A DNA stretch of 64,000 nucleotides. It comes from an uncultured Bacteroidota bacterium (GTDB lineage Bacteria > Bacteroidota > Bacteroidia > AKYH767-A > JABDAW01). Of this stretch, positions 2,647 to 64,000 are shown piece by piece; positions within the stretch are counted from its first letter, which is position 1; the number at the start of each line of letters is the position of its first letter. Made by a program: the position numbers and the translations under genes. The stretch spans positions 32,612-96,611 of the forward strand of contig CAIMUP010000008.1 of NCBI GenBank assembly GCA_903844645.1, in the 5' to 3' direction. The notes beneath the pieces are model-generated. The model made no database searches. It was given only the letters and a program-made list of their open reading frames with translations, and was not told the origin of the DNA.

Positions 2647-3688
2647 TCATTCAGCCTTCTTTACCCCGAATAATTCCAGCAAAATATGTTTCGATTTGTC
2701 GGTAAGGACATAGTTCGATGGGGGCTGTTTTTTTACCAAACCATTGCGAATTAAATTAGGCAAATGTTTCGCAAAACCAGCCACCGAGAGTCCGCCAAAA
2801 CCACGCAGTTCTGCTCCGGTAGCTTTGCCGGCATTATGTAAAAGCAGCAATTCATTCGCCACTGTTCTATGCACTCCCTTCCCTGCTCTGCGTGGCAAAT
2901 GTACCCGTAAAGCAATATGCAATCTGTTGATAAAAACTCTTTCAAGAGGTATTGCTACAGGCAGCGAATGTGTATCCTCAAGACTCGCGTTAGCCATTGC
3001 TTCTTTTATTTTTGATGCATCCGAATTTCGCTCCGCAACGGCATCTTCAAAATCGGCATAAAACTTATAGAGCGAGTTCTGAACAGCATCACTATTAATA
3101 TAATGCTCCAGAGCCTTTATAAGCCCCTTCTCGAAAACAGAATACAACAAAGCACCCCCATTTCCATCAACATTTATTTGTGGCAAAGTCTCCAAAACAG
3201 ATTTTATACCAACCTTATTCTCTGTTACATCATTATTTGAATGTTTTATACCATCCTTTATTTCCGTGGTGCTACCCGACAGATTTTTTATACCATCCTT
3301 TATTTCCGTGGTACTACCCGACAGATTTTTTATACCATCCTTTATTTCCGTGGTGCTACCCGGCAGATTTTTTATACCATCCTTTATTTCTGTGGTGCCA
3401 TCAGACAGATTTTTTATACCATCCTTTATTTCCGTGGTGCTATCCGACAGATTTTTTTATACCATCCTTTATTTCCGTGGTGCTATCCGACAGATTTTTT
3501 ATACCAACCAAACTTTCTGGCACACCTTCCGTCAATGGTTTTATGCCAACCAAACTTTCTGGGAGGTCGTTATCATCATTATATAATGCCGCCTTATTCT
3601 TTAGGTATGCAATTTCATTCCGCTGATCCATCAGATGCTTTAACAGGATATGGATGATCTTTTCAGGCTCGATGTTCATTTTTTCCAT
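2647..3688 (-). pseudogene. split gene (frameshifted or phase-variable): N-terminal helix, 14-aa repeats, middle domain, winged-helix-like C-terminus
   Basis: ORFs 3440-3688 and 2647-3195 join through the repeat (IKNLSDSTTEIKDG)n if one base is removed from a T7 run at ~3452-3458; the other repeat copies have T6. Confidence 0.65.
3244..3530. repeat. 42-bp tandem repeat inside the split CDS (14-aa repeat)
   Basis: TTTTATACCATCC starts at 3244, 3286, 3328, 3370, 3412, 3455. Confidence 0.9.
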
Positions 3689-6038: not shown

Positions 6039-6430
6039 GGTTTATGGGTGGTGGGATTGGATTTGAGGGTAGAGATTTGGGATTTGACGGTGGAGAAATA
6101 GTATTCGACGGTAGAGGAATTGGATTTGGCGGTAGAGATTTGCGATTGAACGGTAGAGGAATTGGATTTGAGGGTGGAGATTTGGGATTCGGCGGTAGAG
6201 AAATGGGATTTGAAGGGATTTTTGTTCTATTCAACGGGAGACAATTGCGATTCGGGCATGTACATTTGCGATTTGACGGTTAACAAATGCGATTTGACGG
6301 TTCACTTTTCCGATTTGACGGTTCACTTTTCCGATTCGACGGTTCACTTTTCCGATTCGGCGGTTCACTTTTCCGATTTGACGGTTCACAAATGCGATTT
6401 GACGGTTCACTTTTCCGATTTGACGGTATT
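6039..6430. repeat. 21-bp imperfect tandem array, ~18 units (core GATTTGACGGT)
   Basis: unit starts at 6060, 6081, 6102, 6123, 6144, 6165, 6186, 6207, 6228, 6249, 6270, 6291, 6312, 6333, 6354, 6375, 6396, 6417. Confidence 0.95.
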
Positions 6431-10389: not shown

Positions 10390-11160
10390 TTACAACGCCA
10401 CTATTGGGATGCAATAGATCCATGCCAACGAACCATCGGGCTTGATGACGGCAAAACGAAACCAATACTTCGTCAGCGGTGTCAAGCCGGTGATCGTTAC
10501 TCTGCCTTTCTTGATGGCTTTGCAGAAGGTGTAGGTGATGCCATCGGTAGAAATTTCAAAAATGTAGGACGGATTCCTTCCTATCGCTTTCACGATTAAT
10601 TCGATCTCTCCAGTAAGCCTCCGAATCGCCTCAATAGCGGGTTTATCGGCTTTGGTACGAACTACCAAGTGCATGTTTGCTCCGACCGCGATAGAATTTG
10701 CATTCAGCGGTTTTGCATTGACCAATCCTTGTACATACGCAAGGGCACCTTCCAGATCCAATTCCACAGCATTCATCAAAGTGGTACGAGCGGCTACTGC
10801 CCCTTTCACTTCGTTTTCGACATCCAATACCGCCAGCGCAAGGTTAGCAAGATTGGTGCCATAGAGGGCAAGCTCGACCATCGGCACGGTGAACCAGCCG
10901 CCAATATTATCAATAAAAGCTTTGCGGATACCAGTCGCTTTCGCGATCCAGTCGTTGATACCATCGGGCATATCCAATGCCACGATGTTTCTCTTCGCCA
11001 TCGCGAGGAGGATAATCAGATGTCCCTGTTTCTCAAAAAGGACTTCCACTTTACGATTCATGCGAGCATTCGCATTGCGGTTTCTTCTTTTGTTTTCCCA
11101 ATACCAGGGGCATTTGCTGAACATCTCGTGTTCAAAATGCTTTACATAATTGTACTTCAT
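10390..11160 (-). CDS. unassigned protein (orphan A): helical N-terminus, fibronectin-III-like C-terminal strand pattern
   Basis: long ORF with coding-like composition; PSYIFEISTDGITYTFCKAIKKGRVTITGLTPLTKYWFRFAVI. Confidence 0.75.
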   Translation of the reverse strand: MKYNYVKHFEHEMFSKCPWYWENKRRNRNANARMNRKVEVLFEKQGHLIILLAMAKRNIVALDMPDGINDWIAKATGIRKAFIDNIGGWFTVPMVELALYGTNLANLALAVLDVENEVKGAVAARTTLMNAVELDLEGALAYVQGLVNAKPLNANSIAVGANMHLVVRTKADKPAIEAIRRLTGEIELIVKAIGRNPSYIFEISTDGITYTFCKAIKKGRVTITGLTPLTKYWFRFAVIKPDGSLAWIYCIPIVAL

Positions 11161-11259
11161 TTTCTTTAATTTTTAGTTGTTTAATTTTATTTATTTTTAT
11201 TCGATATTATTTAATTCATTAGCCCAAAACCGGCTTTCATCACCCCAAAATTGGAGAAA

Positions 11260-11556
11260 GTACACAGACCAAGCGAGGTGCTACACACAAGTCGCGACTT
11301 GCTACACACAACTCGCGACTTGCTACACACAACTCGCGACTTGCTACACACAACTGGCGAGGTGCTACACACAACTCGCGAGGTGCTACACACAACTCGC
11401 GACTTACTACACACAACTCCCGACTTACTACACACAACTCCCGACTTACTACACACAACTCCCGACTTACTACACACAACTCCCGACTTACTACACACAA
11501 CTCGCGAGATGCTACATACAACTCGCGAGATGCTACACACAACTCGCGAGATGCTA
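11260..11556. repeat. 21-bp tandem array, ~14 units (CTACACACAACTCGCGACTTG)
   Basis: CTAC at 11281, 11302, 11323, 11344, 11365, 11386, 11407, 11428 and onward, every 21 bp. Confidence 0.97.
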
Positions 11557-11756
11557 CATAAAAGAAGCCTGTACCGCTGAATTATTGACATTTCAGCAGG
11601 GAAAACCTTTTTAGGAAGCGGAAAAATTACGGGATCAGCAACCATGTTTCGGGGCATAAGCAGCAAGTCGAGGACTGGCGAAGGTTGTTATGCTCCGGAA
11701 GAAGTTGGTTCGTAAGATTTATATGATTCGGGGTATTCATTTCTTTGTTTGAAGCG

Positions 11757-11764
11757 GCAAAGAT
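11757..11764 (-). promoter_or_regulatory. possible minus-strand -7 box (TATCTTTG) for orphan A
   Basis: CAAAGATA on plus strand; would place the array in the 5' leader. Confidence 0.35.
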
Positions 11765-11932
11765 AAACAATATTATTAATATGCAATAGGGCGGTGAAAA
11801 AAACTTCGTTTTCCATTGTCGGGATAATACTTAGTTTTGCCCCATGAATAATAATAGAATGATGAACTAAAAAAGGAACTATAAGGAAATTGCGTTAAGC
11901 TGATTCTTGATGTAGAAAACTGGTAATTTATT

Positions 11933-11993
11933 ACGGTCAAGGAAGAAGCAAAAACGCTCATGCAATGCGTGAGCTTTTGTTTATTCTGACCGT
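11933..11993. other. nested hairpin ACGGTCA..AACGCTCAtgcaatgcgTGAGCTT..TGACCGT
   Basis: outer 7-bp and inner ~5-bp inverted repeats, T-rich flank. Confidence 0.45.
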
Positions 11994-12296
11994 TGGTATA
12001 CCAGTACCTCTACATCGGATAAATTTTAAAGTCTCACGCAGTTTGTTTTTATAACAAAAAGCAAATGTACACACGACCACACCCCCGATTAGGATTAATA
12101 ATTCTGTTACTAAACTGGATTTATAAACTATTGAAAAAAACAGGCAAATGGATTTACAACAAACTGGCATAAAAAATGTATAAAGAAAACAACGATTCAC
12201 GAGCACCGTAACGGTTAGTTAATGATCTTTTATGTAATTTTACACCCAAATCTAAATTTAATAATTCTAAAACAAACAATTTTAATAATAAATAAA

Positions 12297-14858
12297 ATGA
12301 AAAAAATAACAGTAATCTTAATAGTAATAGCCCTGCTTTGCAGGGTAGGCGCAATGGCGCAACAATATGATATCAAAGGTGACAAAAAAACAATGAAACA
12401 AATGATTGAAAAATCTACAACAATCATTGAAGGAAAAGTTGTAGACGGAAAACGAATTTATAAAAGCATTCATGGTACAAATGATAGTACTGAAATTTAT
12501 GCTTTGATTCTTGTGAAACCTATAGCCGTTTTAAAAGGAAGTACCGATTCATCAAAGGTTTATGAATATTTAGTCCTTCGTGGAAATTATTTTGGATCTC
12601 CAGGAGAAAGAATAATTGCAGGATTAAATGATCCAACTAATGATCCCCAAAACGGAATTTTCTTTTTGTCAGATTCAATACCATCGCCGGATTATAATCA
12701 TCCTTTTCCAAATGCTGTTCATGTAGATTATAATTATGGTTTAGGCTATAATAATACGAATCGTGAGCGCACTTTGAAAGATCTTGAGGAGAATTATGGA
12801 TTGAAACCTATCGCAGTTTTTGATTCGCCAATAGTGAAAAAAAAAAGTCTAAACGACAGTAAAGTAAGACCAAGAACAAAACCTGAAAAGATTTTAAAGC
12901 ATACGTCTGTAACCAATAAAAAATCTTTTAATAATTCTCTTTCTAATTATATAGTTCTGGATCGTAAAAAGTCTATTGCTACAAACGACACAGAATTTAT
13001 TTCATTCGAATTACAGGATTTGACTTGTACAACTTTTAATCCTTCTTATTTTGAGTTTGATATAAACATAAATGCAGATTTAGATAGTAATAGTTTTTTT
13101 GATCATTATATTTTTACCCTCCAATACAATACTTTAGCATTTGGGCATAATATTGTTTCCGGACATAATATTTCTATAACTAAAGGTATTTCGTATTTAG
13201 ACAGTACTTATTATAATCCAATGTTATATGCCTATGACTACGATACCAACATTATAGCCTTCCCTTTCGGTGTTGATACTACAAGGCTTTTATTTAATAG
13301 AACGCGTGTAGTAACAAATACGGTAACAATATTCCATGTCAAGATGCTTATTCAAGATTGCAGTCAGGATGTTGCGAGTGGCTGGGGACCGATAATAAGC
13401 CAATGTTGGTTTACTCGGAATAGTGGGGATGCACCTAATTTAGATTCTCTCTATCAAAATATAGGTTTTTCAGATACCTTAATAGGCAAGTATTGTATGA
13501 ATGACTCTTTCCCTTACATAACCCATTTTACCGATACGGTTTACCCTGGTTCTCACTTCCCTATGGAACCAGTTAATCTTGCAAAAATGGTTATTTATGG
13601 ACATAATTTTTTAGATTCTATTGGTCAATTATACTTTCATATTTCAGACGATGGTGGACAAACTTTGGAGCCTCTTAATAACTACGATATTAATTTGTGG
13701 ACAAATGATTCAATTATTGTAACCTTACCATCTGTGATTGATTCTTTTCCTAATTTGGTGAACGCGACATTCCATTGCGTAGGAAGCGGTTCATTTCTCG
13801 TTGTCACCGCAGGAGGTGATACAGCACGAAGTTCTACTGCTGCTTTTCAAGATAGTAGTGTTTTCTGCCCTTACGCTATTATAAGTGCCATTTGGCCTGC
13901 ATCATGGCCTTTGTATAGAAAAGTTAAATATGACTTAGTAAATGTGTTTGACACTATTGGTTATACTTTTCGATTCGATTCAAGCATTCATAATTTTGCC
14001 CTACCATTGAAACCATTTATTAAAAGAGCAATGAAGGATTGGGTTTGTGCTACAGGTGTAAATTTTGTTGCTGGCACAGATACAATGCTTGATCACTATA
14101 ATGATACCGATAAAGTATGTAATATATTCCTAGTAAATACGCTTCCTGATAGCGCATTAATGTCCACTCAGGTAACACCATTTAAATGTAACGATCAGTT
14201 TGGAAATGTTATTTTTATTGTGAAAGATATTGATATAGGGATTTTGAGGAATCCAACTATGATTACTTCTGGTAAAGTATGGTGGGTAGATACTTTACAA
14301 AATGACTTAAAACTTGATAGTTTAGATTTTTTTGAAAGTATTTTACATGAATTCGGGCATGCGAGCTGTTTAAAACATGTCAATCAAAAAGAACTAATGT
14401 ACCTTGCTGCTCAACATGGTCCTATACCAGGAGGGCAAAGAAGATTAATTGACATTTATGATATGAACGGAGGATTAAATGTTAATTTCACAAGTTCATT
14501 AGCAACTACGGTTCTGCCCTCATGTCAAGTTTATCACCCGATGATTATGATTAATAATAACTGTGTTTGGTTTGGCGATGTAAACGAACTAAACCATAAT
14601 GTTCTTAGTCTAAAAGTGTACCCTAATCCGGTTCACAATACTTTATTGAACATTGCTTATGATTTAAAAGAAGATGCCCCCGTTAATTTTATTTTACTAA
14701 ATAGTGTTGGCAAGGAGATTTATTCAATGAATGCAAACAGGAGTTCAGGAAAGAATGTTGATCAAATTAACATGGATGACTTAGCAACTGGGATATATTA
14801 TTTGGAAGTCATCATCAATAAAATTGGAGATACAATGACATTAGTAAAGATTAAATAA
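12297..14858 (+). CDS. secreted matrixin-like metalloprotease with T9SS C-terminal sorting domain
   Basis: signal peptide MKKITVILIVIALLCRVGAMAQ; zinc motif ILHEFGHASCLKH; C-terminal VYPNPVHNTLLNIAY...LATGIYYLEV. Confidence 0.85.
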   Translation: MKKITVILIVIALLCRVGAMAQQYDIKGDKKTMKQMIEKSTTIIEGKVVDGKRIYKSIHGTNDSTEIYALILVKPIAVLKGSTDSSKVYEYLVLRGNYFGSPGERIIAGLNDPTNDPQNGIFFLSDSIPSPDYNHPFPNAVHVDYNYGLGYNNTNRERTLKDLEENYGLKPIAVFDSPIVKKKSLNDSKVRPRTKPEKILKHTSVTNKKSFNNSLSNYIVLDRKKSIATNDTEFISFELQDLTCTTFNPSYFEFDININADLDSNSFFDHYIFTLQYNTLAFGHNIVSGHNISITKGISYLDSTYYNPMLYAYDYDTNIIAFPFGVDTTRLLFNRTRVVTNTVTIFHVKMLIQDCSQDVASGWGPIISQCWFTRNSGDAPNLDSLYQNIGFSDTLIGKYCMNDSFPYITHFTDTVYPGSHFPMEPVNLAKMVIYGHNFLDSIGQLYFHISDDGGQTLEPLNNYDINLWTNDSIIVTLPSVIDSFPNLVNATFHCVGSGSFLVVTAGGDTARSSTAAFQDSSVFCPYAIISAIWPASWPLYRKVKYDLVNVFDTIGYTFRFDSSIHNFALPLKPFIKRAMKDWVCATGVNFVAGTDTMLDHYNDTDKVCNIFLVNTLPDSALMSTQVTPFKCNDQFGNVIFIVKDIDIGILRNPTMITSGKVWWVDTLQNDLKLDSLDFFESILHEFGHASCLKHVNQKELMYLAAQHGPIPGGQRRLIDIYDMNGGLNVNFTSSLATTVLPSCQVYHPMIMINNNCVWFGDVNELNHNVLSLKVYPNPVHNTLLNIAYDLKEDAPVNFILLNSVGKEIYSMNANRSSGKNVDQINMDDLATGIYYLEVIINKIGDTMTLVKIK

Positions 14859-14877
14859 GAGGAGAATAATTTCAAAA

Positions 14878-14908
14878 GAAAAGCGGCATAGAACATGCCG
14901 CTTTTTTT
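14878..14908 (+). terminator. rho-independent terminator
   Basis: AAAAGCGGCATagaacATGCCGCTTTTTTT. Confidence 0.9.
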
Positions 14909-14970
14909 ATTTCTATAAACTGATAGAAGATAATAAAGAGGTTTTAGGCATCGGGAAACTATTAGTTGAA

Positions 14971-15041
14971 TAGTTTAAAGTTTAAGGTTTAAGGTTTAAG
15001 GTCGTACACAACTTTAAACCTTAAACTTCAAACCTTAACTC
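14971..15041. repeat. heptamer repeat GTTTAAG/TTTAAGG with inverted copy
   Basis: AGTTTAAAGTTTAAGGTTTAAGGTTTAAGG..ACTTTAAACCTTAAACTTCAAACCTTAACT. Confidence 0.7.
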
Positions 15042-15044
15042 CAC

Positions 15045-15075
15045 CAAAAGCGGTACACAGCGTACCGCTTTTTTT
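15045..15075. terminator. hairpin terminator
   Basis: AAAAGCGGTACacagcGTACCGCTTTTTTT. Confidence 0.8.
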
Positions 15076-15153
15076 GTTCTTAATTAATTTCCTACTTTTG
15101 CAATTCATTAGACCTCTTTCATAAAGCTTTTATTGCCCAATTACGAAAGAGGT

Positions 15154-17094
15154 CTAATCAAAAAATTGCCAGATAATGCCAAACTTAATTCCGAAAACAG
15201 GCATCGCATAATTCGGCACCAAATAGTAGCTCTCGGCAGGATGAAAATTATTCAACACGTTCTCGCCCCTCAAATAAATCCGCGCCGTACGGATCTTGAT
15301 ATTCAAGAAAATATCCAACAACGGATAGTCGCCAATCGCATACTTATCTTGCAGATAAAACTGCCCCGTTACCGGCATGTACGCATCGCCAAAGTAGTGA
15401 GAATGGTAGCGGAAATCCACCCCGAATTGAGTCTGTAAAGCATGATGAAAAAAAGCATGATCAATAAAAAGAGAGTTTGAAAATGTGAATTCCGGCAACC
15501 GGATTTTATCGGTATGCAATGCCTTTTGATACAGAATATTATTATCGAAATGCAGATGATGCCATTGAAAGTTTTTACTTAATTCTATTTGAGTAATCAC
15601 CACCGAATCCCGCGCCTGAACGGGCATTGAAGCCGTATCGTAATAAATATAGTTAGAGATATTGATCAACCGAAAATCCAATTTGTTGTTTCTCTTTTTC
15701 CCATTAATCTCAAAAGTAACCGCCTGAAAATTGATTGGATTAAAATGGTTGTTCCACGAATAATTATTGCCCTCATATCTATTCTGCATCAAGGTCGGCG
15801 CAACAGAATTGATGGAAAATAAAAACGCAGTCGGCACCTTCGCAGAATCCTTCGCATACTCTTTAAACAACGCGGAATAAGAACCCTTGTTAGCCCCATA
15901 AAAACAATAATTGCCCGACAATTTAAGATGTAAGAAACCCTTAAAATGTATCGCCCCACCAGCAATTCCATTCTGCAAACTGCTATCAATAATTCGTTGA
16001 TGATACCAAATTATTTCATGCGACAAATCGAACAAATACCCAAAGTACCGCAGCGAATCATCGCCCTTATTTTTATTATCCAAAGTACCCCACGAAATCT
16101 TGTTCGTCAGCTTCGAATAATACGTCGTATCAGACGTATGCGCCGAATCGGGATAGAAATTTCGATAAAAACCAGGTATCTCCAAGCTGTCCTCGAAAGT
16201 ATAAGAATTCGTTTCATAAGTGATGGAATGAGCAACGCGTTGTGTAGGCTTAAACCGTTGGATAGTGATGGTATCATTGATTTTCACCTCAGAATGAAAA
16301 CCGAAATCATAGCTCTGTTTGACATAGAAAATACGGTTGTTATACCGCGTATTCGCATTCTGCAAACTAACCAAGTTCAGGTTCTGCGCAATATCGTTTA
16401 AGCCACTATTCGTCGAGTCGTTGTTGCTTTTTAATCCGCCATTTTCCTGATTCTTCACCACATTCCAAATCCCCGTAGCAAGGGCATTGTAGCGAAGATT
16501 TTTAGAATTATACCAAGAGAAGAAATCGAAGTTCGTAACGCTAGTATTCTGATGCGGCAACGACCCATCCGACCCGATACGATTGTAGTTAAAACCAAAA
16601 TTAAACTGCTCATTCATGTTCTGCGTGTGGGTAACCTTTATATATCCCTCGCTCTTCGACCCTAACCCGAATTGCAGTTCGGTGAACGGTTTATTCGTTC
16701 GATAATATTTGATGCTGTCAAGGGAAAAGAAGAATAAATCGTAATTATGGAAACCAATATTCATCCCCAAACGATTGTTGATAGCAAAAAGATTGGGAAA
16801 CGCCGCCGTTCCGAGGTTGCCGAGGTATTTATATGAATGTTTGAAGGCGGGATTAAAAACTTCTATCATATCCAAAACAGTATCAATTTTTTGAAGTTCG
16901 GTAGCAGGAATGGTCTTTTCCAAAGAAATCTCATTAAAATACTTTACCACCGGGATTATTCTCGGAGTTTTCTTCTTTGTGGAGTCCGCAGGGATAGCAA
17001 AAGAGGCAATCGGAAACAGACAAAATATACTATATATCAGGCATTTGGCAACCTTGGCACGAATCTGAAACAGCTCCTTGTTTATCTTAATCAT
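15154..17094 (-). CDS. putative porin (Porin_10-like outer membrane beta-barrel)
   Basis: LGSKSEGYIKVTHTQNMNEQFNFGFNYNRIGSDGSLPHQNTSVTNFDFFSWYNSKNLRYNALATGIWN; terminal strand GIKFGIIWQFFD. Confidence 0.8.
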   Translation of the reverse strand: MIKINKELFQIRAKVAKCLIYSIFCLFPIASFAIPADSTKKKTPRIIPVVKYFNEISLEKTIPATELQKIDTVLDMIEVFNPAFKHSYKYLGNLGTAAFPNLFAINNRLGMNIGFHNYDLFFFSLDSIKYYRTNKPFTELQFGLGSKSEGYIKVTHTQNMNEQFNFGFNYNRIGSDGSLPHQNTSVTNFDFFSWYNSKNLRYNALATGIWNVVKNQENGGLKSNNDSTNSGLNDIAQNLNLVSLQNANTRYNNRIFYVKQSYDFGFHSEVKINDTITIQRFKPTQRVAHSITYETNSYTFEDSLEIPGFYRNFYPDSAHTSDTTYYSKLTNKISWGTLDNKNKGDDSLRYFGYLFDLSHEIIWYHQRIIDSSLQNGIAGGAIHFKGFLHLKLSGNYCFYGANKGSYSALFKEYAKDSAKVPTAFLFSINSVAPTLMQNRYEGNNYSWNNHFNPINFQAVTFEINGKKRNNKLDFRLINISNYIYYDTASMPVQARDSVVITQIELSKNFQWHHLHFDNNILYQKALHTDKIRLPEFTFSNSLFIDHAFFHHALQTQFGVDFRYHSHYFGDAYMPVTGQFYLQDKYAIGDYPLLDIFLNIKIRTARIYLRGENVLNNFHPAESYYLVPNYAMPVFGIKFGIIWQFFD

Positions 17095-17210
17095 GGCGGC
17101 AAAAATAGCTTAAATTTGGATGAAAAAGGTAAATAATGCAGAAAAAATTTGGTTTATGTTAAATGAAATTATTATTTTTGTTGCCTCAAAAAAATTAAAC
17201 AGTCTTAAAC

Positions 17211-17858
17211 ATGGCAAAAAAACTAACCAAAAAACCTGCCCCAAAAGGGAAACCTGCGGCATCATCTTCATCAACCAAAAAGGCAACGCCGAATAAAAAA
17301 GCAGCGGCAAAAGGAAAGCCTAAAGTAGCAACAAAGAAAGTTGTTGCGAAATCAACTCCACCAAAAAAGGCAACAAGCACAAAGAAAGTTGTTGCTAAGA
17401 AAACAGTTGCGGCAAAGCCTAAGCCGTCTTCGGTAAAGAAGAAAGTAGTGGCTAAACCAATAGCCAAAAAGGTGGTGAAGAAACCAGCATCTTCTGCAAA
17501 AAAGGTAGTTAAGAAATCAACTCCTTCTGTAAAAAAGGTTACGAAAAAAGTAACTACAGTTGTGAAGAAAGTTACCCCTCCGGCAAAGAAGAAGTTAGTT
17601 GCCAAACCTGTTGTAAAAAAAGCAACTCCTAAGAAAGAAGTTAAGACAAAACCTGTAGCCGTAGCCCCTCCCAAATCAAGTGTTAAGATCATTCCGGCAA
17701 AGAAAATGGATTTTAAAGATGAGCAAACAAAGACTTTGGAAAGCTCGATTATCAAACCTACAATAGTCTCTGATATTGACTATGAAGTAACAATTGATGA
17801 GGATTTCAAAGGCTTTGATGACCCATTTAATTTGGAGGATGACGACGACGATTATTAG
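17211..17858 (+). CDS. histone H1-like lysine/alanine-rich protein with acidic C-terminus
   Basis: KKA/KKVV-rich low-complexity repeats for ~150 aa, then DEDFKGFDDPFNLEDDDDDY. Confidence 0.85.
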   Translation: MAKKLTKKPAPKGKPAASSSSTKKATPNKKAAAKGKPKVATKKVVAKSTPPKKATSTKKVVAKKTVAAKPKPSSVKKKVVAKPIAKKVVKKPASSAKKVVKKSTPSVKKVTKKVTTVVKKVTPPAKKKLVAKPVVKKATPKKEVKTKPVAVAPPKSSVKIIPAKKMDFKDEQTKTLESSIIKPTIVSDIDYEVTIDEDFKGFDDPFNLEDDDDDY

Positions 17859-17890
17859 TCTGTCGGGGATTACTTTTAATCCTTGATAGA

Positions 17891-18973
17891 TTAAAGATAA
17901 ATCGCTCCACCGACCGAATCTCGCGATGCTCCAGTAACCGATTTCAGGCAGTTTATCTCGCCGCGAAGTCGTAACACGCCGAGCAATCCAAAGATGATGG
18001 CTTCTTTATAATTAACCAGATTTTCGTCTGGGATAACGACCTCGACGGGGCACTGTTTTTGAAGTAATTCTACCAACAATTTATTAAACGCACCGCCACC
18101 GGTTACCAGCATTTTGGTATAGTCGGGATTCTTTTTCTTATCCTCGAGAATGACTTTGGAAATCTGTTGGGCTATGTGTTCATTCACGGTGCGAAGTTTA
18201 TCTTCTATTCCGATTTTACTTGATACCAATTCAACGATATGCTGTTCGGTAATTAATTCTTTGCCTAACGACTTCGGGAAGGGCTGTGAATAGTATTTTA
18301 ATTTATTAAGCGAAAGCAACAGCTCTGTATCCACGTTGCCTTTCCGAGCGATGGTTCCTTCATTATCGTACTCCATTCCGAGCTTCTCGGCAAGATGATT
18401 TAAGATTATATTACACGGAACAATATCTCCTGCAATGCGTTCTTTTATTTGAGAACTTTTCTCAAACGATATGTTCGCGATGCCGCCTAAATTGAGGCAA
18501 TAATCGTACTCCTGATATAAGTACCGATCGCCTATGGGTACGAGGGGAGCGCCTTGTCCTCCCAAAGCAACATCTGTAGTACGGAAGTTGCAGGCTACAG
18601 GCGTGTTGCAAAACGCTGCGATAGCTGCTCCGTTGCCTATTTGCACGGTGAGGCGATTCTGCGGTTGATGAAAGATGGTATGCCCATGGGAGGCAATCAA
18701 ATCAGGCTTCAGGTCTTTGGTATAAATAAAATACTTTATTAATTTGCCTAAGAAACGACCGAAATCAGAATGCAAAATCGCGAATCCGTTAGCGCGTTTC
18801 TTCTCTGCGGTAATCAGCATTTCTTTCATCTGATCGTTGTACGGAATCGTTCTGAAATCAAGGAGTTCATACGTCCAGGTGCCATCCCGCTCTGTAAACT
18901 TTACATACACTATATCTACCCCATCCAAAGATGTGCCTGACATAACTCCGATTACATTATAGTTGTTTATCAT
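17891..18973 (-). CDS. anmK: anhydro-N-acetylmuramic acid kinase
   Basis: VIGVMSGTSLDGVDIVYVKF...ASHGHTIFHQP...LNLGGIANIS...VTGGGAFN. Confidence 0.95.
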   Translation of the reverse strand: MINNYNVIGVMSGTSLDGVDIVYVKFTERDGTWTYELLDFRTIPYNDQMKEMLITAEKKRANGFAILHSDFGRFLGKLIKYFIYTKDLKPDLIASHGHTIFHQPQNRLTVQIGNGAAIAAFCNTPVACNFRTTDVALGGQGAPLVPIGDRYLYQEYDYCLNLGGIANISFEKSSQIKERIAGDIVPCNIILNHLAEKLGMEYDNEGTIARKGNVDTELLLSLNKLKYYSQPFPKSLGKELITEQHIVELVSSKIGIEDKLRTVNEHIAQQISKVILEDKKKNPDYTKMLVTGGGAFNKLLVELLQKQCPVEVVIPDENLVNYKEAIIFGLLGVLRLRGEINCLKSVTGASRDSVGGAIYL

Positions 18974-19071
18974 TTGGCAAAATTACTAAAACTTTTGGGT
19001 AAAGGAATAAACTTCCAAATATTTTCTTTTCTTTGCCGCGTCAAACGATTTGGCAAACACCTTAATTCAGA

Positions 19072-20100
19072 ATGTTGGTAGGGCTGATAAAAAAAGGTTT
19101 TAATATTCCGCCCGTGAGAACAGTAAAGTTTAACCAACAAATTAAGAAAATGGAGATAATATTTAATGATCAGCCGGACCCTGTAAAGCGTCAGTTAGCC
19201 GGTATTAAGGTGTTCACAGATGCCGATGGGACGACCGGTATTTTTTACACGATGATGCAGAATAAAAGCATTAACTATGCTGCGAGAATTGCGGATTGCG
19301 ATGCGGCAACTGTCTATATGATCAGTCGCGAAGCGAAGCTCGGGCAGGCGAAAGGGAAAACTGATCAGGCTGGGAGGATCATCAAACAAGTAAAAAAGGA
19401 GATGCGGAATGTGGTCGCGAATGGCAAGTCGGTATTGCCGGAATTCGGCGATCTGACGGGGTATGGCTTCGATATAGAAGATGGTACTCGGTTAAAATTG
19501 CAGACCAAAGCGCCGCAGCTAAAGATCGTCGCGTTGGCGGTAGGTACCAAGATTGCGAGCTTCACGAGTTCGGTTTGCCCATTGACTCCTTTTATTACTT
19601 TAAAGGGGTACGATATTCCGGGATGGGCGACGAAGTTAGCACTCGTTGTGACGCTCCGTGCTGATGCTGCGGATCTGCGCCAATCAGCGAAGGGCGACAA
19701 CAATAATTTTCATCTGAAAATGGAACATGCCGAGATTGATCTGCGCGATTTCGCGGCTGTTATTCACGAAGTAAGTGGCGACGATCCGGCGGCTTATGCG
19801 AAGTATTATTTTTTGACGAGGAACACCCCGACGGTAGAGAAAAATCAGGTTTCGAAGATACTGCCGACCGAATATAAAGGGCTTGAACGGCTTGCTAAAC
19901 TGACCTTATTGCATAATCGTACGGGTCACGATTTGTGGGTTCGGAAGGGCAAGAGACGGACAGGGGCTTTCGTGATACTGCTTGCGAATGGGACGATGTT
20001 AGTAACGTATGGATATGGAACATGCACGATTCAAAATCCATCCGATACGGCTCCTGCCGAAGTATCGGCAACTGTTAATAGAAAAGCAAAGAAGGCATAA
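19072..20100 (+). CDS. unassigned protein (orphan B); start could be the downstream ATG (MEIIFNDQPD)
   Basis: 342-aa ORF, coding-like composition, strong terminator downstream. Confidence 0.75.
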   Translation: MLVGLIKKGFNIPPVRTVKFNQQIKKMEIIFNDQPDPVKRQLAGIKVFTDADGTTGIFYTMMQNKSINYAARIADCDAATVYMISREAKLGQAKGKTDQAGRIIKQVKKEMRNVVANGKSVLPEFGDLTGYGFDIEDGTRLKLQTKAPQLKIVALAVGTKIASFTSSVCPLTPFITLKGYDIPGWATKLALVVTLRADAADLRQSAKGDNNNFHLKMEHAEIDLRDFAAVIHEVSGDDPAAYAKYYFLTRNTPTVEKNQVSKILPTEYKGLERLAKLTLLHNRTGHDLWVRKGKRRTGAFVILLANGTMLVTYGYGTCTIQNPSDTAPAEVSATVNRKAKKA

Positions 20101-20271: not shown

Positions 20272-20329
20272 CGAACTCTGTACATTTTGCCACGAAACAC
20301 GTGTTTTATGGCAAAATGTACAGAGTTCG
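20272..20329. repeat. 58-bp near-palindrome at the array head
   Basis: arms CGAACTCTGTACATTTTGCC / GGCAAAATGTACAGAGTTCG perfect over 20 bp, inner AAACACGTGTTT palindrome. Confidence 0.95.
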
Positions 20330-20460
20330 AACCGAAGTTTACAGAGTTCGAACAGAAGTTTACAGAGTTCAAACAGAAGTTTACAGAGTTGATGAAGAAG
20401 TTTACATAGTTAATGAAGAAGTTTACATAGTTAATGAAGAAGTTTACATAGTTTATCCAT
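20320..20460. repeat. 21-bp tandem array, 7 units (ACAGAGTTCGAACAGAAGTTT)
   Basis: ACAGAGTT/ACATAGTT at 20320, 20341, 20362, 20383, 20404, 20425, 20446. Confidence 0.97.
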
Positions 20461-23863: not shown

Positions 23864-24262
23864 GATGTTATTTTATTAATCGTGGATGTTATCATAATAT
23901 CATTGAAGAAAAACATGCTCCCCAAGGTGATTTTTTATTTCCCTATGGAGATCAATCAGTTCTCCTCGGGGAAATCAGTTTTCCCCGTGAGGAAAAAGAT
24001 TTTATCCACAGTGAAAAAGGTTTTCTATGTGATGAAAAAGGTTTTCTCTTTGGGGAATTTGTTTTTCATCACAAGGAAAAATAAATTCGTTATCGGGAAG
24101 GAAGATTTCCCTACGGGGAGTGCGTTTTTTATCAAATATAATGCGAAAACCTCCCTCCTGAATCGTATAACATCCTTTATTAATAAGATAATCTCCCCTG
24201 CAAATTTTATAACATCCTTTATTAATATCATAACATCCACAAGGAATAAAATAACATTCCCC
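23864..24262. repeat. 21-bp-periodic, strongly diverged array, 19 in-register units
   Basis: units at 23864, 23885, 23906, 23927, 23948, 23969, 23990, 24011, 24032, 24053, 24074, 24095, 24116, 24137, 24158, 24179, 24200, 24221, 24242. Confidence 0.85.
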
Positions 24263-24267
24263 GATAC

Positions 24268-24316
24268 TTCGCAACCTTACAGGAAGGCTGAAGGAGCCTA
24301 CCTGTCAGGTTGCTGA
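24268..24316. repeat. hairpin GCAACCTTACAGG..GGCT..AGCC..CCTGTCAGGTTGC
   Basis: inverted repeat related to 358-403 element, different inner stem. Confidence 0.75.
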
Positions 24317-24493
24317 ATAACTATGAGAATTTTTATAACATTCACGGTGAATAAACCAACATTCACGGTGAATAAAATACTTGTTTTGGAGATTTGTTTA
24401 GGATGTACGGAAATTTTGTTATATTTGCCGAATCCGATTTGGATTTCCTTAGATAATAATTGAACTCTTATAAACATTAAATAATAAGCCATT

Positions 24494-29468: not shown

Positions 29469-29544
29469 GAAAAAAATTGAGTTTTATATGGGAAGCAGGA
29501 AAATTGTATTGAAATATAGATAGTTATAGGGTAGTGGAGTAGAT

Positions 29545-29620
29545 TTTTACTGTAGTGATATTGATGTTTACTGTAGTGATATTGACTTTTACTGTAGTGA
29601 TATTGATTTGGAGCATCGTG
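29545..29620. repeat. short 21-bp array (TTTACTGTAGTGATATTGATG)x3-4
   Basis: TACTG at 29548, 29569, 29590. Confidence 0.9.
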
Positions 29621-29735
29621 ATATTTTTGTGTTTGCTGAATTTTAATGTTGGGTTGGGAAAATAGGATGGTTGTCGAATCTACAAAAATGTCAGATGCGA
29701 ATCCAATGATTGATGGGCGCAATCGCGGTGAGTGG

Positions 29736-34942: not shown

Positions 34943-35027
34943 CGTAATTAATTAAGTTGCGCAAAACTACTTTAATATTCGGCATTGGGATTCAAAAATG
35001 ACCTTCCACACAAATAATATCATACTT

Positions 35028-35300
35028 GGGCATGCCCCAACGAGGTAGAATTTCTGTTGGCTGGCACTTGGGCATGCCCCATCAGGGTAAAATAAGTATT
35101 GGCTGGCATTTGGGCGTGCCCAAGTAGGGTAAAATACAAATTGGGAGCTTCTGGGGCGTGCCCAAGTAGGATAAAATAAGTATTGGAAAAGACTGGGGCA
35201 TGCCCAAGTAGGATAAAATAATTGTTGGGAAGCCTTGGGGCGTGCCCATGTATCATAAAATAGTTATTTTAACTTGCTGGGGCATGCCCATGTTGGATAA
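35028..35300. repeat. 42-bp tandem array, 7 units, each with palindrome GGGC[A/G]TGCCC
   Basis: GGGCRTGCCC at 35028, 35070, 35112, 35154, 35196, 35238, 35280. Confidence 0.97.
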
Positions 35301-35413
35301 AATAGTTTTTGAGAGGAGTTTGGGAATTTTGGAGGAGGGTGAAAAGGTATTTTTGGCTTGTTGATACTCCTTATATTATAGTGGTGGTTTTGGAGGGGAA
35401 GGATTCTGACTAA

Positions 35414-38759: not shown

Positions 38760-39115
38760 ACAGGATAATAGTCGTCGCTATCATAATAACCCGTCATCAT
38801 ATATGAAAACGTGTCATCGTGATAACAATTATTACTTTCGTGATAACGATAACCACTTTTGTTATCATGAAAACTACTTTTATGATAGCGATGGTAACAA
38901 TTACACGTTTTCATATATGACGACGAGTTATTATGATAGCGAAAGTAGTTTTTACTATAGTGAAAGTAGTTTTTACTATAACGAAAGTAGTTTTTACTAT
39001 AGCGAAAGTAGTTTTTACTATAGTGAAGGTAGTATTTATGATAGTGAAGGTAGTATTTATGATAGTGAACGTGGTGTTCACGATAGCGATTATGATATTC
39101 ACGATAGTGAGGACC
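38760..39115. repeat. 21-bp array with internal long inverted repeat
   Basis: GAAAGTAG-type unit starts at 38941, 38962, 38983, 39004, 39025, 39046, 39067, 39088; inverted repeat AACCCGTCATCATATATGAAAACGTGT / ACACGTTTTCATATATGACGACGAGTT. Confidence 0.93.
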
Positions 39116-42235: not shown

Positions 42236-43585
42236 TTACTTTATTCTATCCAAAATCTCCCCGTAAAGCTCGCTGTACTTCCGCAATACCCGGTTCCATG
42301 CTTCGAAACATTCATCTTGATTGGCGGTGGGAGAAACACAATTTTGTTTCGAGAAATCATCCGATACTTTAGACATTTCGCTCTGGACTTTTACATTAAT
42401 CTTTAATGGATTGAAGCCGCCATTCGTTACAACAATTCGGGTTCTGACCATCGAAGGAAATGGCGTGTTCTTGTTGTATATCGCCCCGACCCAGCTTGTT
42501 CGCAGATAATTGGTGGAGGCATCTATGGTTTGTATTTCATCGAACTTAGAGGAGATTATACTCACCAATATTTGCCATGCTTGCTTGGCGTCGCCATTGA
42601 TTTGGAGCGTGAAGGCTTTGTTTGCCTGGTCGCTTTGTTCGGATTGATCATACGCTTCATCCTTATCCATTTTGAAAGAATATTTGGTGTCCGGAAGTAC
42701 GCCATCTGGCTTGTTGCACCATTCATATCGTTGCGAAACATAACCGGCTTTCTTAACCACAACGCTTGCACATTTCCCTTCCGAAACTTTTACTTTGGCA
42801 GTCTTTTTCCCGAGCTCTTTTCCATCCACAAAAATCGAGGCATCATCAGGATCTACGGTAACTTCTGATAGGCGGTCTTTCATTTTTATCAGATCACTAT
42901 TGGGCGGAACTTCTTCGGCATCCATGTTGCAATATTTCTTTTCTTCATTGGCAAAACCAACCTTGACGACCTTCACCGTTACGCAAGAATTATTCGGTAT
43001 GGCAACCTCGGCACTGCCCTTGGTTTCTTGTTTTTTATTATCAATAAAAATATCGGCATCGGGAGGCGAAGTCTTTAAATAAACGATGCGGTCATTCATC
43101 TTAAACACCTGTTCGGTAACCGGTTCGGGCTTGCCTTCGATGTTATAATATGTTGCTGATTTTACACCGTAGCCGGGTTTCTTGACCTCCACCAAAACGC
43201 TTTTTCCTTTAGCGATAATAATGTCTTGCGGAGTAGAGCCTTTATCAATTCCATCCACAAAAATATGGGCATCCAATGGCGAAACAGATACCTTTACCAC
43301 CCGTGTTACGAGGGTAATTTTCAGAATTGGTTCGGCATCTTTCTTCCGGAAATAGGTGGTATCAATACTTAAATATCCTTCCTTCCGAATGCGGAACGTA
43401 TAGGGCGTATTTTTTTCTAATTCCTTGGTAACGGCTCCCTTTACATAATTTAATTCCTTACCATTTTGCATAAAAGCAACGGTGGCATCGGCGGGAACAG
43501 GCTGGACGGTGAGCACTTTTTGTGCTGCCATATTCATCGTTAATACTATCAACAAAATTACGGGTACAATTTTTTTCATTTCCAT
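42236..43585 (-). CDS. PEGA-domain protein
   Basis: start MEMKKIVPVILLIVLTMNMAAQ; repeated DAHIFVDGIDKGSTPQDIIIAKGKSVLVEVKKPGY units. Confidence 0.82.
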   Translation of the reverse strand: MEMKKIVPVILLIVLTMNMAAQKVLTVQPVPADATVAFMQNGKELNYVKGAVTKELEKNTPYTFRIRKEGYLSIDTTYFRKKDAEPILKITLVTRVVKVSVSPLDAHIFVDGIDKGSTPQDIIIAKGKSVLVEVKKPGYGVKSATYYNIEGKPEPVTEQVFKMNDRIVYLKTSPPDADIFIDNKKQETKGSAEVAIPNNSCVTVKVVKVGFANEEKKYCNMDAEEVPPNSDLIKMKDRLSEVTVDPDDASIFVDGKELGKKTAKVKVSEGKCASVVVKKAGYVSQRYEWCNKPDGVLPDTKYSFKMDKDEAYDQSEQSDQANKAFTLQINGDAKQAWQILVSIISSKFDEIQTIDASTNYLRTSWVGAIYNKNTPFPSMVRTRIVVTNGGFNPLKINVKVQSEMSKVSDDFSKQNCVSPTANQDECFEAWNRVLRKYSELYGEILDRIK

Positions 43586-43699
43586 GAGTCTTATTTTATA
43601 ATTAATGGGGCGAAAATACAAAATATATCTTTTCTGCAATCGGCACATTGAAAAAAGGAGGATTTTAAGCCTTGGAACATTCAAAACACGAATCGGTCG

Positions 43700-43880
43700 A
43701 ATGATTGAGGCAAATACAGTTGTATTTGCTCGAATCACTCGAGTGATTGCCGCCAATACAGTTACTTTGTCCGAAACACTCGAATGATTGCCTCCGATTC
43801 AGTTGTATTTGCCTGAATCATTCGAGTGATTGCCTCCAATACAGTTGTATTTGCCTGAATCGAACGTTCGATTCGATAAA
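43700..43880. repeat. array of alternating palindromes, 21 bp between dyad centres (42-bp composite)
   Basis: dyad centres ~43719.5, 43740.5, 43761.5, 43781.5, 43802.5, 43823.5, 43844.5, 43865.5. Confidence 0.93.
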
Positions 43881-44031: not shown

Positions 44032-46119
44032 ATGACGAAAATTAAAAATTATTTCCTGCTCCTTGCCGCCATCGGATTCCTGTTTATTACGGCTTGCAAG
44101 AAGAACCCGAACGAGGAACGCTGGGATACGAATATCCTTGCGCCGTTGGTGAATTCGACACTGACGCTGAAGAATCTGATCAACGATACGTTGATGAAAA
44201 CGAATAGTGCAGGCGAAGTGAGCTTGGTTTATCGCAGCGGCTTGTACGATTTTTCTATTGATTCATTATTTAAGATTCCGGATACGACGATGACGAATAG
44301 TTATGGTTTGACTTCGCTGAATATCGCAAATCAGAATGTGGTGTATAAACTTTCTTTGGGGCAAATGTTGATACAAGGCGGCTTGGGAACTTTTGCGGGG
44401 TTGGATAGTACTTATCAGGTGATTCCTCCGATTCCGCAAGGGCAAATTACGACAACCTATCCTATTAATGTGGATACTATTTTCCAAAGCATGACTTTGA
44501 TTGATGGACAGATGGTTATTTCGATTCAAAATCAGTTTCCGATAGCGATTTATAGCGTTCATTTTTTGTTAAAGAATACCAGCAATCAAGCCATAATTGT
44601 TGACCACACTTTTGATTCTATTCCGGCACATAGCACCCGTTCTTTTACTGGATCATTGGCAGGTAAAACAGTTAATGGCGCAATGACCGCTTCTATTGAT
44701 GGTATCTGGAGTCCCGGGTCGAATGGTAACTTGGTTTATATTGATACTACGAATCAATTAATCACAACGCTTTCGGTCATTAATCTTGTTCCCGATTCAG
44801 CTACGGCGAAGTTTCCCGGTCAGGATTTGATAAAGAAAACAACCGTTATCCCGATGAATTTAAAAGGTGTACAATTGACAAAGATTATTGCACAATCAGG
44901 AAATGTGGTGATAGATGCGTATAATACTTTGCCCGATACGTTGCGGTTTCAGTATGTAATTCCCGGCGCGAGATTGAATGGTGTAATCTTTAAAGCGATT
45001 GAAAATATGCCGCCTTCCGTGAATCATGTTGCGTCGCATGTGCATAAAGAATATAAACTCGATGGCTACACGATTGACTTGAAAGGACCGCATGAAGATA
45101 CCGTAAATACCTACTATTTCAATATCATCGGCACAATAGATTCGACAGGACAAATCCAGACGCTTACGCGGAATGATAGCATCAAACTGACGACTTCTTT
45201 CACGGGATTGGTTCCGTATTATGCCAAAGGATATTTGGGACAACAGATGTTTGAATTAGGTCCGGGTTCGGTGCCGGTTGATTTATTTAAGAACATCATT
45301 GGAGATTCAATTCGTCTTGCGAATGTCATCATGAATCTCTCGGTTCAAAATGGTATCGGTGCGAATGCGAGATTAGTTATTGATACCATCGAAGCCGAGA
45401 ATTCAAGAACGAAGGGCAAAGGATTTTTGAAAGGAAAAAATAATACGAACCTTCCACCTTTCGCCATCGCAAGAGCTACCGAAACAGGCAATTCGATGAA
45501 CCCTGTAAACATTGCATACAGTAGTCTTCACCTCGATTCAAGTAATTCTACCGCACCTTTAATGTTGAGTGTGATGCCAACGCAACTCGATTATAAATTG
45601 AGATTATTCCTTGATACCGCCGGTAATTCCTCCAACTTTAATGACTTTATTTATTATGGAAACGGCTTGAAGGCGAATGTAGATTTTGAGATTCCGATGA
45701 ACTTTATGTGCTATCAATTAATGCTGATTGATACCACCGCTTTCAACATAGGGAATACGAAGCAGTCAGGTAAAATTAAGTCGGGAACTTTCACGCTTAA
45801 TGTCGGAAATGGCTTCCCGCTTGGTGGTACTATCCAGATGTTTTTATTGGATCAATATGGCAACCAAGCCGATTCGTTGTTTGCAACGAATACCTTTGTT
45901 GCCGCGCCACTCGGAACAGATAGTATCGTTCACGCTCCGAAATATTCTGCCCTCTCCATGCCAATTTCAGAGGCTAAGATGCAGAATGTTTTGAAGGCTA
46001 CCAAGGCGATCATTAAAATAAAATTCTCTACTCAACCAGCCGGCACCAAGGTGAAGATTTATAGTGATTATAATATTGCCTTGAAGCTCGTTGGTAATTT
46101 TGTTTATAAAGTTGAATAA
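44032..46119 (+). CDS. large lipoprotein, unassigned
   Basis: MTKIKNYFLLLAAIGFLFITACKKN lipobox; long coding ORF. Confidence 0.85.
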   Translation: MTKIKNYFLLLAAIGFLFITACKKNPNEERWDTNILAPLVNSTLTLKNLINDTLMKTNSAGEVSLVYRSGLYDFSIDSLFKIPDTTMTNSYGLTSLNIANQNVVYKLSLGQMLIQGGLGTFAGLDSTYQVIPPIPQGQITTTYPINVDTIFQSMTLIDGQMVISIQNQFPIAIYSVHFLLKNTSNQAIIVDHTFDSIPAHSTRSFTGSLAGKTVNGAMTASIDGIWSPGSNGNLVYIDTTNQLITTLSVINLVPDSATAKFPGQDLIKKTTVIPMNLKGVQLTKIIAQSGNVVIDAYNTLPDTLRFQYVIPGARLNGVIFKAIENMPPSVNHVASHVHKEYKLDGYTIDLKGPHEDTVNTYYFNIIGTIDSTGQIQTLTRNDSIKLTTSFTGLVPYYAKGYLGQQMFELGPGSVPVDLFKNIIGDSIRLANVIMNLSVQNGIGANARLVIDTIEAENSRTKGKGFLKGKNNTNLPPFAIARATETGNSMNPVNIAYSSLHLDSSNSTAPLMLSVMPTQLDYKLRLFLDTAGNSSNFNDFIYYGNGLKANVDFEIPMNFMCYQLMLIDTTAFNIGNTKQSGKIKSGTFTLNVGNGFPLGGTIQMFLLDQYGNQADSLFATNTFVAAPLGTDSIVHAPKYSALSMPISEAKMQNVLKATKAIIKIKFSTQPAGTKVKIYSDYNIALKLVGNFVYKVE

Positions 46120-50847: not shown

Positions 50848-51303
50848 ATGAAATTAAAGATAATGGGCGCGGAGGTATTTGATAGTAGCATGGTGATGAA
50901 TGATACCATATATATAGGAGTGGAAAAGATGAACTTTTATATTGAAATACCCCTGAATAATGTCGTTCGAGGCAACATTTTGATGGTGTATCCTAATAGC
51001 GTAACACTATATCCTAATAGCGTAACACTATATCCTTATAGTGTAACACTATATCCTTATAGTGTAACACTATATCCTTATAGCGTTGCACTATATCCTT
51101 ATAACGTTACACTATATCCTTATAACGTTGCACTATATCCTTATAACGTTGCACTATATCCTTATAACGCTGCACTATATCCTTATAACGTTGCACTATA
51201 TCCTTATAACGTTGCACTATATCTTTTTTCAGGTAAAATATCGAAAATTAAGAGTAATTTAATAAGAAAAAGTAGTTTAATCAAACAATTAAAAGATGAG
51301 TAA
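50848..51303 (+). CDS. possible small ORF containing translated heptad repeats (LYPYNVA)n, overlapping the next start (ATGAGTAA)
   Basis: 151-aa ORF between a -7-like box and an overlapping ATG; could be chance given a 21-bp period. Confidence 0.35.
   Translation: MKLKIMGAEVFDSSMVMNDTIYIGVEKMNFYIEIPLNNVVRGNILMVYPNSVTLYPNSVTLYPYSVTLYPYSVTLYPYSVALYPYNVTLYPYNVALYPYNVALYPYNAALYPYNVALYPYNVALYLFSGKISKIKSNLIRKSSLIKQLKDE
50989..51228. repeat. 21-bp tandem array, ~12 units (TATCCTTATAGTGTAACACTA)
   Basis: TATCC/TATCT at 50989, 51010, 51031 ... 51220. Confidence 0.97.
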
Positions 51304-58109: not shown

Positions 58110-58170
58110 AATCCAACCCCCTCCCTATTATATAAGGAGTGGTTATTCAATAAAAATCGTGTGGCGGCGT

Positions 58171-58410
58171 GGTACGCGTTGGTGTACCGTACCAAATGTT
58201 TCCCTTTGGAATGGTACGCGTTGGTGTACCGTACCAAATGTTTCCCTTTGGAATGGTACGCGTTGGTGTACCGTACCAAATGTTTCCCTTTGGAATGGTA
58301 CGCGTTGGTGTACCGTACCAAATGTCTCCCTTTGGAATGGTACGCGTTGGTGTACTGTACCAAATGTCTCCCTTTGGAATGGTACGCGTTGGTGTACCAG
58401 AGCAAATGTA
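58171..58410. repeat. 42-bp tandem array, 6 units (GGTACGCGTTGGTGTACCGTACCAAATGTTTCCCTTTGGAAT)
   Basis: GGTACGCG at 58171, 58213, 58255, 58297, 58339, 58381. Confidence 0.98.
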
Positions 58411-63840: not shown

Positions 63841-64000
63841 GTTCACGGTAGCAATTAGTCTGACCACAATAGCTATTGTCTTGACCACAATAGCTATTGT
63901 CTTGACCACGGTAGCTATTGTCATGACCACAATAGCTATTGGTATGAGACGGTAGCTATTGTCATGACCACAATAGCTATTGTCATGACCACAGTAGCTA
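63841..64000. repeat. 21-bp tandem array, >=8 units (GACCACAATAGCTATTGTCTT), cut by window edge
   Basis: AGCT (or AGCA) centre at 63851.5, 63872.5, 63893.5, 63914.5, 63935.5, 63955.5, 63976.5, 63997.5; ACAATAGCTATTGT is a perfect palindrome. Confidence 0.97.

Follow-up and report, generated by a model that had tools for sequence, protein, structure and literature searches.

A palindromic 21-bp array in an uncultured Bacteroidota bacterium is one of many intergenic arrays that share a period and mostly not a sequence

Why should different palindromes follow one another at steps of 21 bp, changing in sequence while both arms stay matched? The question was raised by an intergenic locus in a 64-kb stretch of DNA (hereafter the window) from an uncultured Bacteroidota bacterium, lying between divergent genes at 42236–43585 (minus strand) and 44032–46119 (plus strand). 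The palindromes were confirmed as a real feature, one array among an estimated eight hundred intergenic ones. Their 21-bp period and paired arms point to a DNA-level process or a binding platform, as yet undescribed, by which spacing and symmetry are kept and sequence is not.

Dyads and paired arm changes in the focal array

The locus comprises the following features, in window coordinates:

42236 to 43585, minus strand: PEGA-domain protein gene with ATG at 43585, divergent neighbour of the focal array
43689 to 43876, unstranded: focal array, nine dyad-bearing 21-bp units with one 20-bp step and two related palindrome types alternating
43710 to 43729, unstranded: type A palindrome GCAAATACAGTTGTATTTGC, dyad centre 43719.5
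43731 to 43750, unstranded: type B palindrome unit, core AATCACTCGAGTGATT, dyad centre 43740.5
43857 to 43874, unstranded: terminal perfect 18-bp palindrome GAATCGAACGTTCGATTC, dyad centre 43865.5, a symmetric type B variant
44032 to 46119, plus strand: gene for a 695-aa predicted lipoprotein without Pfam match

A TTG-started open reading frame reaching 43756 enters the focal array, and its start is probably overextended. The array itself was called by TRF at 43689–43861, with a period of 42 and 4.1 copies. Bond-centred dyads, scored as matches out of 8, were located at 43698.5 (6/8), 43719.5 (7/8), 43740.5 (8/8), 43761.5 (4/8, decayed), 43781.5 (6/8, after the sole 20-bp step), 43802.5 (4/8), 43823.5 (7/8), 43844.5 (6/8) and 43865.5 (8/8). 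Scores of at least 6/8 are rare, being reached at 0.53% of the bond centres in the window. For the focal array, a 21-bp comb applied to the dyad scores gave 39, compared with 25.2 ± 2.1 after shuffling (maximum 34 in 1000 shuffles), and 21 was the best comb period when periods from 17 to 26 were compared. The scored centres and the comb test both bear out the original prediction of dyads every 21 bp with one 20-bp step. The dyads that it listed are real, but the first one, at 43698.5, had been missed.

The alternation of two palindrome types that had been proposed was also recovered, with arms (separated here by a slash) GAATCACTC/GAGTGATTG and CAAATACAG/TTGTATTTG. Moreover, the two types are related to each other: they have a common axis, and offsets 2, 5 and 6 are changed symmetrically. 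The last unit, GAATCGAAC/GTTCGATTC, which had been described as a perfect 18-bp palindrome altered symmetrically on both arms, is exactly that: it has symmetric changes at offsets 2, 3 and 4 and represents a third symmetric variant.

Pairing was found in 86.1% of cells in the focal array (8 units, 9 pairs). Double-change cells numbered 16, compared with 7.2 in shuffled data (reached in 0 of 500 shuffles) and only 0–5 in slid registers, although these cell counts are non-independent events because the units of one array share kinship. Under a column-permutation null in which the best axis was re-chosen each time, the observed double changes were reached in 4 of 2000 permutations and the observed pairing in 0 of 2000. 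The count of paired- against single-arm changes had been proposed beforehand as a check, and independent arm change was not seen.

No copy of the focal array was found elsewhere in the source genome, except for one 23-bp match. In a congeneric genome (G001), the orthologue of the gene at 44032 also has a palindromic array with a 21-bp step upstream, of other sequence: CTTGTCGC-AAAC-GCGACAAG.

A period-defined family of intergenic arrays

The original prediction had treated the array as a single locus. The locus is real, but it belongs to a family that is spread through the genus and is defined by a common period. In the 64-kb window, TRF returned more than 12 intergenic arrays whose unrelated units repeat with a period of 21, 42 or 63, among them:

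3202 to 3548, unstranded: sister array, period 42
6056 to 6427, unstranded: two adjoining sister arrays, period 21/63, with relatives at C75, C92 and C141 and in the congener at G002:C27
11273 to 11558, unstranded: sister array, period 21/63
20319 to 20453, unstranded: sister array, period 21/42
23978 to 24376, unstranded: decayed sister arrays, period 21/42
29542 to 29625, unstranded: sister array, period 21
35024 to 35304, unstranded: sister array with GGGCATGCCC palindromes, period 42/126, its pairing matched by 0 of 1000 column permutations
38817 to 39089, unstranded: sister arrays, period 21
50989 to 51223, unstranded: sister array, period 21
58170 to 58409, unstranded: sister array, period 42, with an 86% relative at C65
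63849 to 64000, unstranded: sister array with palindrome ACAATAGCTATTGT, period 21, with relatives at C51 (100% over 86 bp), C44, C95, C14 and C122

The census of arrays was extended to 652 kb of the source genome (G000; 3.84 Mb in 143 contigs). In this sample, 139 of 156 arrays had a period that was a multiple of 21; nearly all of them were intergenic, their units were mostly unrelated, and 21-type arrays made up 3.8% of the sequence. Extrapolation from the 652 kb, in place of a direct count, gives an estimate of about 800 arrays in the whole genome. Two congeneric MAGs, G001 and G002 (records Umea1_bin-0439 and BWOrgHeat_Nextera81_MAG6), were analysed as well. Multiples of 21 accounted for 14 of 15 arrays in G001 and for 52 of 87 in G002, whose assembly is only 58% complete. 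Outside the genus the numbers were smaller: a genome of the same family held 3 such arrays in 118 kb, more distant relatives held 5 in about 0.68 Mb, and 20 other Bacteroidota held 1 in 387 kb.

The period is strict. Only 23 register shifts were counted in 1640 units, and lags of 21, 42 and 63 were prominent, whereas lags of 20 and 22 were not. Higher-order periods of 42, 63, 84 and 126 were found, and periods of 18, 24 and 30 were nearly absent in G000. The sequences, by contrast, are mostly unrelated, with 158 of 216 arrays from the three genomes showing no match to any other sampled array. Because hundreds of arrays of the same period differ in this way, a sequence-specific regulator is an unlikely explanation. 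Furthermore, among gaps longer than 60 bp, the share that contained arrays was 43% for convergent, 57% for divergent and 38% for tandem gaps, percentages that rest on crude gene calls. Since arrays are common in all gap orientations, terminators or promoters alone fit badly.

Draft assemblies break in these arrays: 19 of 44 G000 contig ends examined lay inside 21-bp arrays (e.g. L045, L046, L053 and L105), so that array lengths and copies may be understated, and the arrays at contig ends may be longer than they appear.

Several further repeats were recorded during the census. A 53-copy heptamer array (GAATAGT) lies beside 21-bp arrays at G002 L065:3578-3951, and heptamers are present also in other genomes of the order. 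Isolated arrays with 42/84-bp periods were seen in two more distant relatives, at G027 L091:17985-18181 (with palindrome AATCACGTCGTGATT) and at G003 L158:17531-17891; possibly, they are traces of the same phenomenon beyond the genus. A repeat of period 126, a multiple of 21, at L049:14873-15544 falls within a very long open frame (10979–19999) and probably represents ordinary coding repeats.

Symmetry, copying and candidate explanations

Dyads are common among the arrays and not universal. A consensus stem with 6 or more pairs was present in 18% of 21-bp units, compared with 2% of shuffled units, and one-axis pairing at P ≤ 0.05 was detected in 68 of 191 arrays, with about 10 expected. About two thirds of the arrays lack a significant dyad, and hairpins therefore cannot be required for array upkeep. 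Covarying pairs exceeded the column-permuted expectation in G000 (163 vs. 118.8 ± 7.0) and, more weakly, in G002 (61 vs. 47.5 ± 4.2), and no excess was found in G001, which contributed only 14 arrays (12 vs. 15.1).

An array pair from two congeneric species bears evidence of stepwise arm change. The arrays at G000 L099:5887-6171 and G002 L068:10137-10366 have orthologous genes on both flanks (56% and 45% amino acid identity) and are homologous but inverted relative to those flanks, which establishes one in-place inversion between species. Their palindromes, CCTGAAACTTCAGG and TTCCAGAATTCTGGAA, have a common axis and lie four symmetric double changes apart, and the edge units of the G000 array hold a one-arm intermediate, CCTGAAACTTCTGG; this stepwise cross-species evidence comes from one orthologous array. 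The maintenance of symmetry despite sequence turnover, which had been predicted for the focal array, was thus observed there, in the pooled G000 arrays and in this orthologous array.

Arrays are also homogenised locally and found in near-identical copies at other loci. In 53 of 63 arrays, similarity was higher between neighbouring units than between distant ones, and end units were slightly more divergent than middle units. A 222-bp stretch of array recurs with 96% similarity at two G000 loci whose flanks are unrelated, and relatives at other sites of the genome were found for 5 of the 14 window arrays. The closest of these matches, 100% over 86 bp, suggests recent copying between loci. In the copied arrays examined, the array alone was common, with up to about 50 bp more in some pairs, and no common ends were found. 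About six related arrays occupy separate loci (window 63849–64000, G000 C51:14917-15150, C44, C95, C14 and C122), and the arrays at window 6056–6427 and G002:C27:12350-12490 are 80–84% alike across two species.

The reading towards which we lean, tentatively, is a helically phased family of DNA-level arrays that would undergo homogenisation and copying as DNA and regain their symmetry through template switching at hairpins. Slippage or unequal recombination would amplify and homogenise the arrays in whole 21-bp (or 42/63-bp) steps, and arrays would occasionally be copied into other intergenic sites. Single-stranded units with a dyad could fold back, and a polymerase switching templates would copy arm onto arm, turning a single-arm change into a symmetric change in both arms. 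In E. coli, template switching converts quasipalindromes to perfect palindromes (PMC7202029), and it can produce multibase compensatory changes, as proposed for RNA genes (PMC8794818). In the present arrays, symmetric changes that preserve pairing exceed the expectation for independent arms, as quasipalindrome template switching would require. Template switching leaves the period of 21 unexplained, and slippage or recombination does likewise. The 21-bp step may be retained because whole double turns place every unit on the same helix face, and other periods are probably filtered out by a factor that reads shape or phase and not sequence; this is the least certain step. At 10.5 bp per turn, no whole number of base pairs below 21 completes an exact number of helical turns, which makes such a factor our best guess.

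It is also possible that the arrays form a geometry-defined repeat system, in which a dedicated putative process or protein would make, copy and maintain hundreds of two-turn intergenic arrays and renew their dyads, possibly as a phased chromatin-like scaffold. To our knowledge, the known bacterial repeat families are all sequence-defined. Several percent of this genome consists of arrays that have only their period, two DNA turns, in common. It thereby becomes testable whether selection or a copying machine can act on DNA geometry without sequence, and many parallel loci are available for watching compensation between arms where no RNA cause is evident. No published account of such 21-bp arrays was found in the open-licence literature, which is not proof of novelty.

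The main rival, which we consider rather doubtful, is a phased protein platform, in which a dimeric nucleoid-type or structure-reading protein would bind dyads or bends on one helix face every two turns and selection for this binding would keep period and symmetry while sequence drifts. The exact 21-bp step, the paired changes, the same-face dyads and the presence of arrays in about half of the convergent and divergent gaps are all consistent with it, but the loci have no common sequence motif, a significant dyad is missing from most arrays, and A/T phasing at 10 bp is absent from the units. Curvature predicted by a wedge model was 0.68 deg/bp in arrays and 0.37 in array-free gaps; nearly all of it arises automatically whenever the repeat has 21 bp (shuffled columns still gave 0.62; P = 0.018), and selected intrinsic curvature was rejected for this reason. 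HU-family gene number is ordinary, with two in G000, and HU gene counts gave no lead to an array-linked factor. Symmetry kept through change, on which the original prediction had based its choice of dimer binding sites or hairpin-templated copying, holds and is compatible with either.

Plain minisatellites, generated by slippage and recombination alone, with the period of 21 as an accident of the lineage and the dyads as a by-product, are unlikely. The greater likeness of neighbouring units, the slightly more divergent end units and the higher-order periods would be expected of them. However, a single period across many loci of unrelated sequence, with few exceptions, is not expected of independent slippage, and the excess of dyads and covariation also argues against this explanation.

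Selection for pairing in transcribed RNA hairpins (terminators, stability elements or small RNAs) is very unlikely. Arm changes are paired, and the focal strand folded with a z of −6.8 with DNA parameters. Nevertheless, divergent gaps hold arrays as often as convergent ones, no terminator-like site was found at the focal array, and Rfam gave chance matches only, none near the gathering score. Moreover, one-arm changes on the sense strand were A-C in 16 cases and G-U in 5, opposite to RNA selection, and sense-strand hairpins were rejected on this wobble asymmetry.

Coding seven-residue repeats (21 = 7 codons) have next to no likelihood: open frames are frequent (4.4 of 6 vs. 3.9 shuffled), but changes show no codon-position bias (maximum phase share 0.468 vs. 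0.485 in the null). A 3 × 7 heptad origin was likewise rejected, with a lag-7 identity of 0.247 against a null of 0.254. Without a 7-bp sub-period or codon bias, and with so few periods of 18, 24 or 30 bp, heptads and coding both fail to explain 21. An assembly artefact is scarcely credible: k = 21 is often used in de Bruijn assembly, every genome is a draft, mostly MAGs, and many contigs end in arrays, but the units are diverged, ordered, type-alternating and covarying, and three genomes of the genus (two from known separate projects) have arrays whereas other Bacteroidota drafts do not.

Candidate drivers were also sought among gene families. A REP transposase was rejected, with one partial, weak PF01797 match in G000 and more and stronger matches in array-free relatives. 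Cas1 was rejected, being found in neither G000 nor G001, and reverse transcriptase and tyrosine recombinase were rejected as their gene numbers do not follow the arrays.

Comparison with known repeat systems

REPs have a common sequence and a Y1 transposase (TnpA_REP). The present arrays resemble REP/BIME elements (PMC3733652, REP families) in being many-copy intergenic palindromes, but they have no common sequence, as the 158 of 216 unmatched arrays show, and in the genus the transposase family is only weakly or fragmentarily represented. CRISPR also places partly palindromic direct repeats in arrays, whereas the units described here are contiguous, without spacers, and no Cas1 was found in G000 or G001.

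The TAACTGA heptamers of Beggiatoaceae (PMC4679880) are similar in that many intergenic direct repeats occur per genome; 21 equals 3 × 7, and heptamer repeats occur in some relatives of the present genus. They are, however, one conserved 7-mer near start codons, and the present units show no lag-7 similarity. BrickBuilt of Porphyromonas gingivalis (PMC4596501) is likewise a spacer-less tandem array at several loci in a member of the Bacteroidota, but it consists of one 23-nt sequence in a MITE with leader and tail, whereas the present arrays are of many sequences and have nothing but the 21-bp period in common. A conserved leader and tail with terminal inverted repeats was not found in the copied arrays examined.

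Quasipalindrome template switching (PMC7202029, PMC8794818) corresponds in its imperfect inverted repeats, perfected by the copying of one arm from the other, and in its symmetric multibase changes; its known events are at single hairpins, and it sets no 21-bp step, arrays or genome-wide spread. In form, the arrays agree with minisatellites or VNTRs, being spacer-less tandem units within the range of about 10–100 bp.
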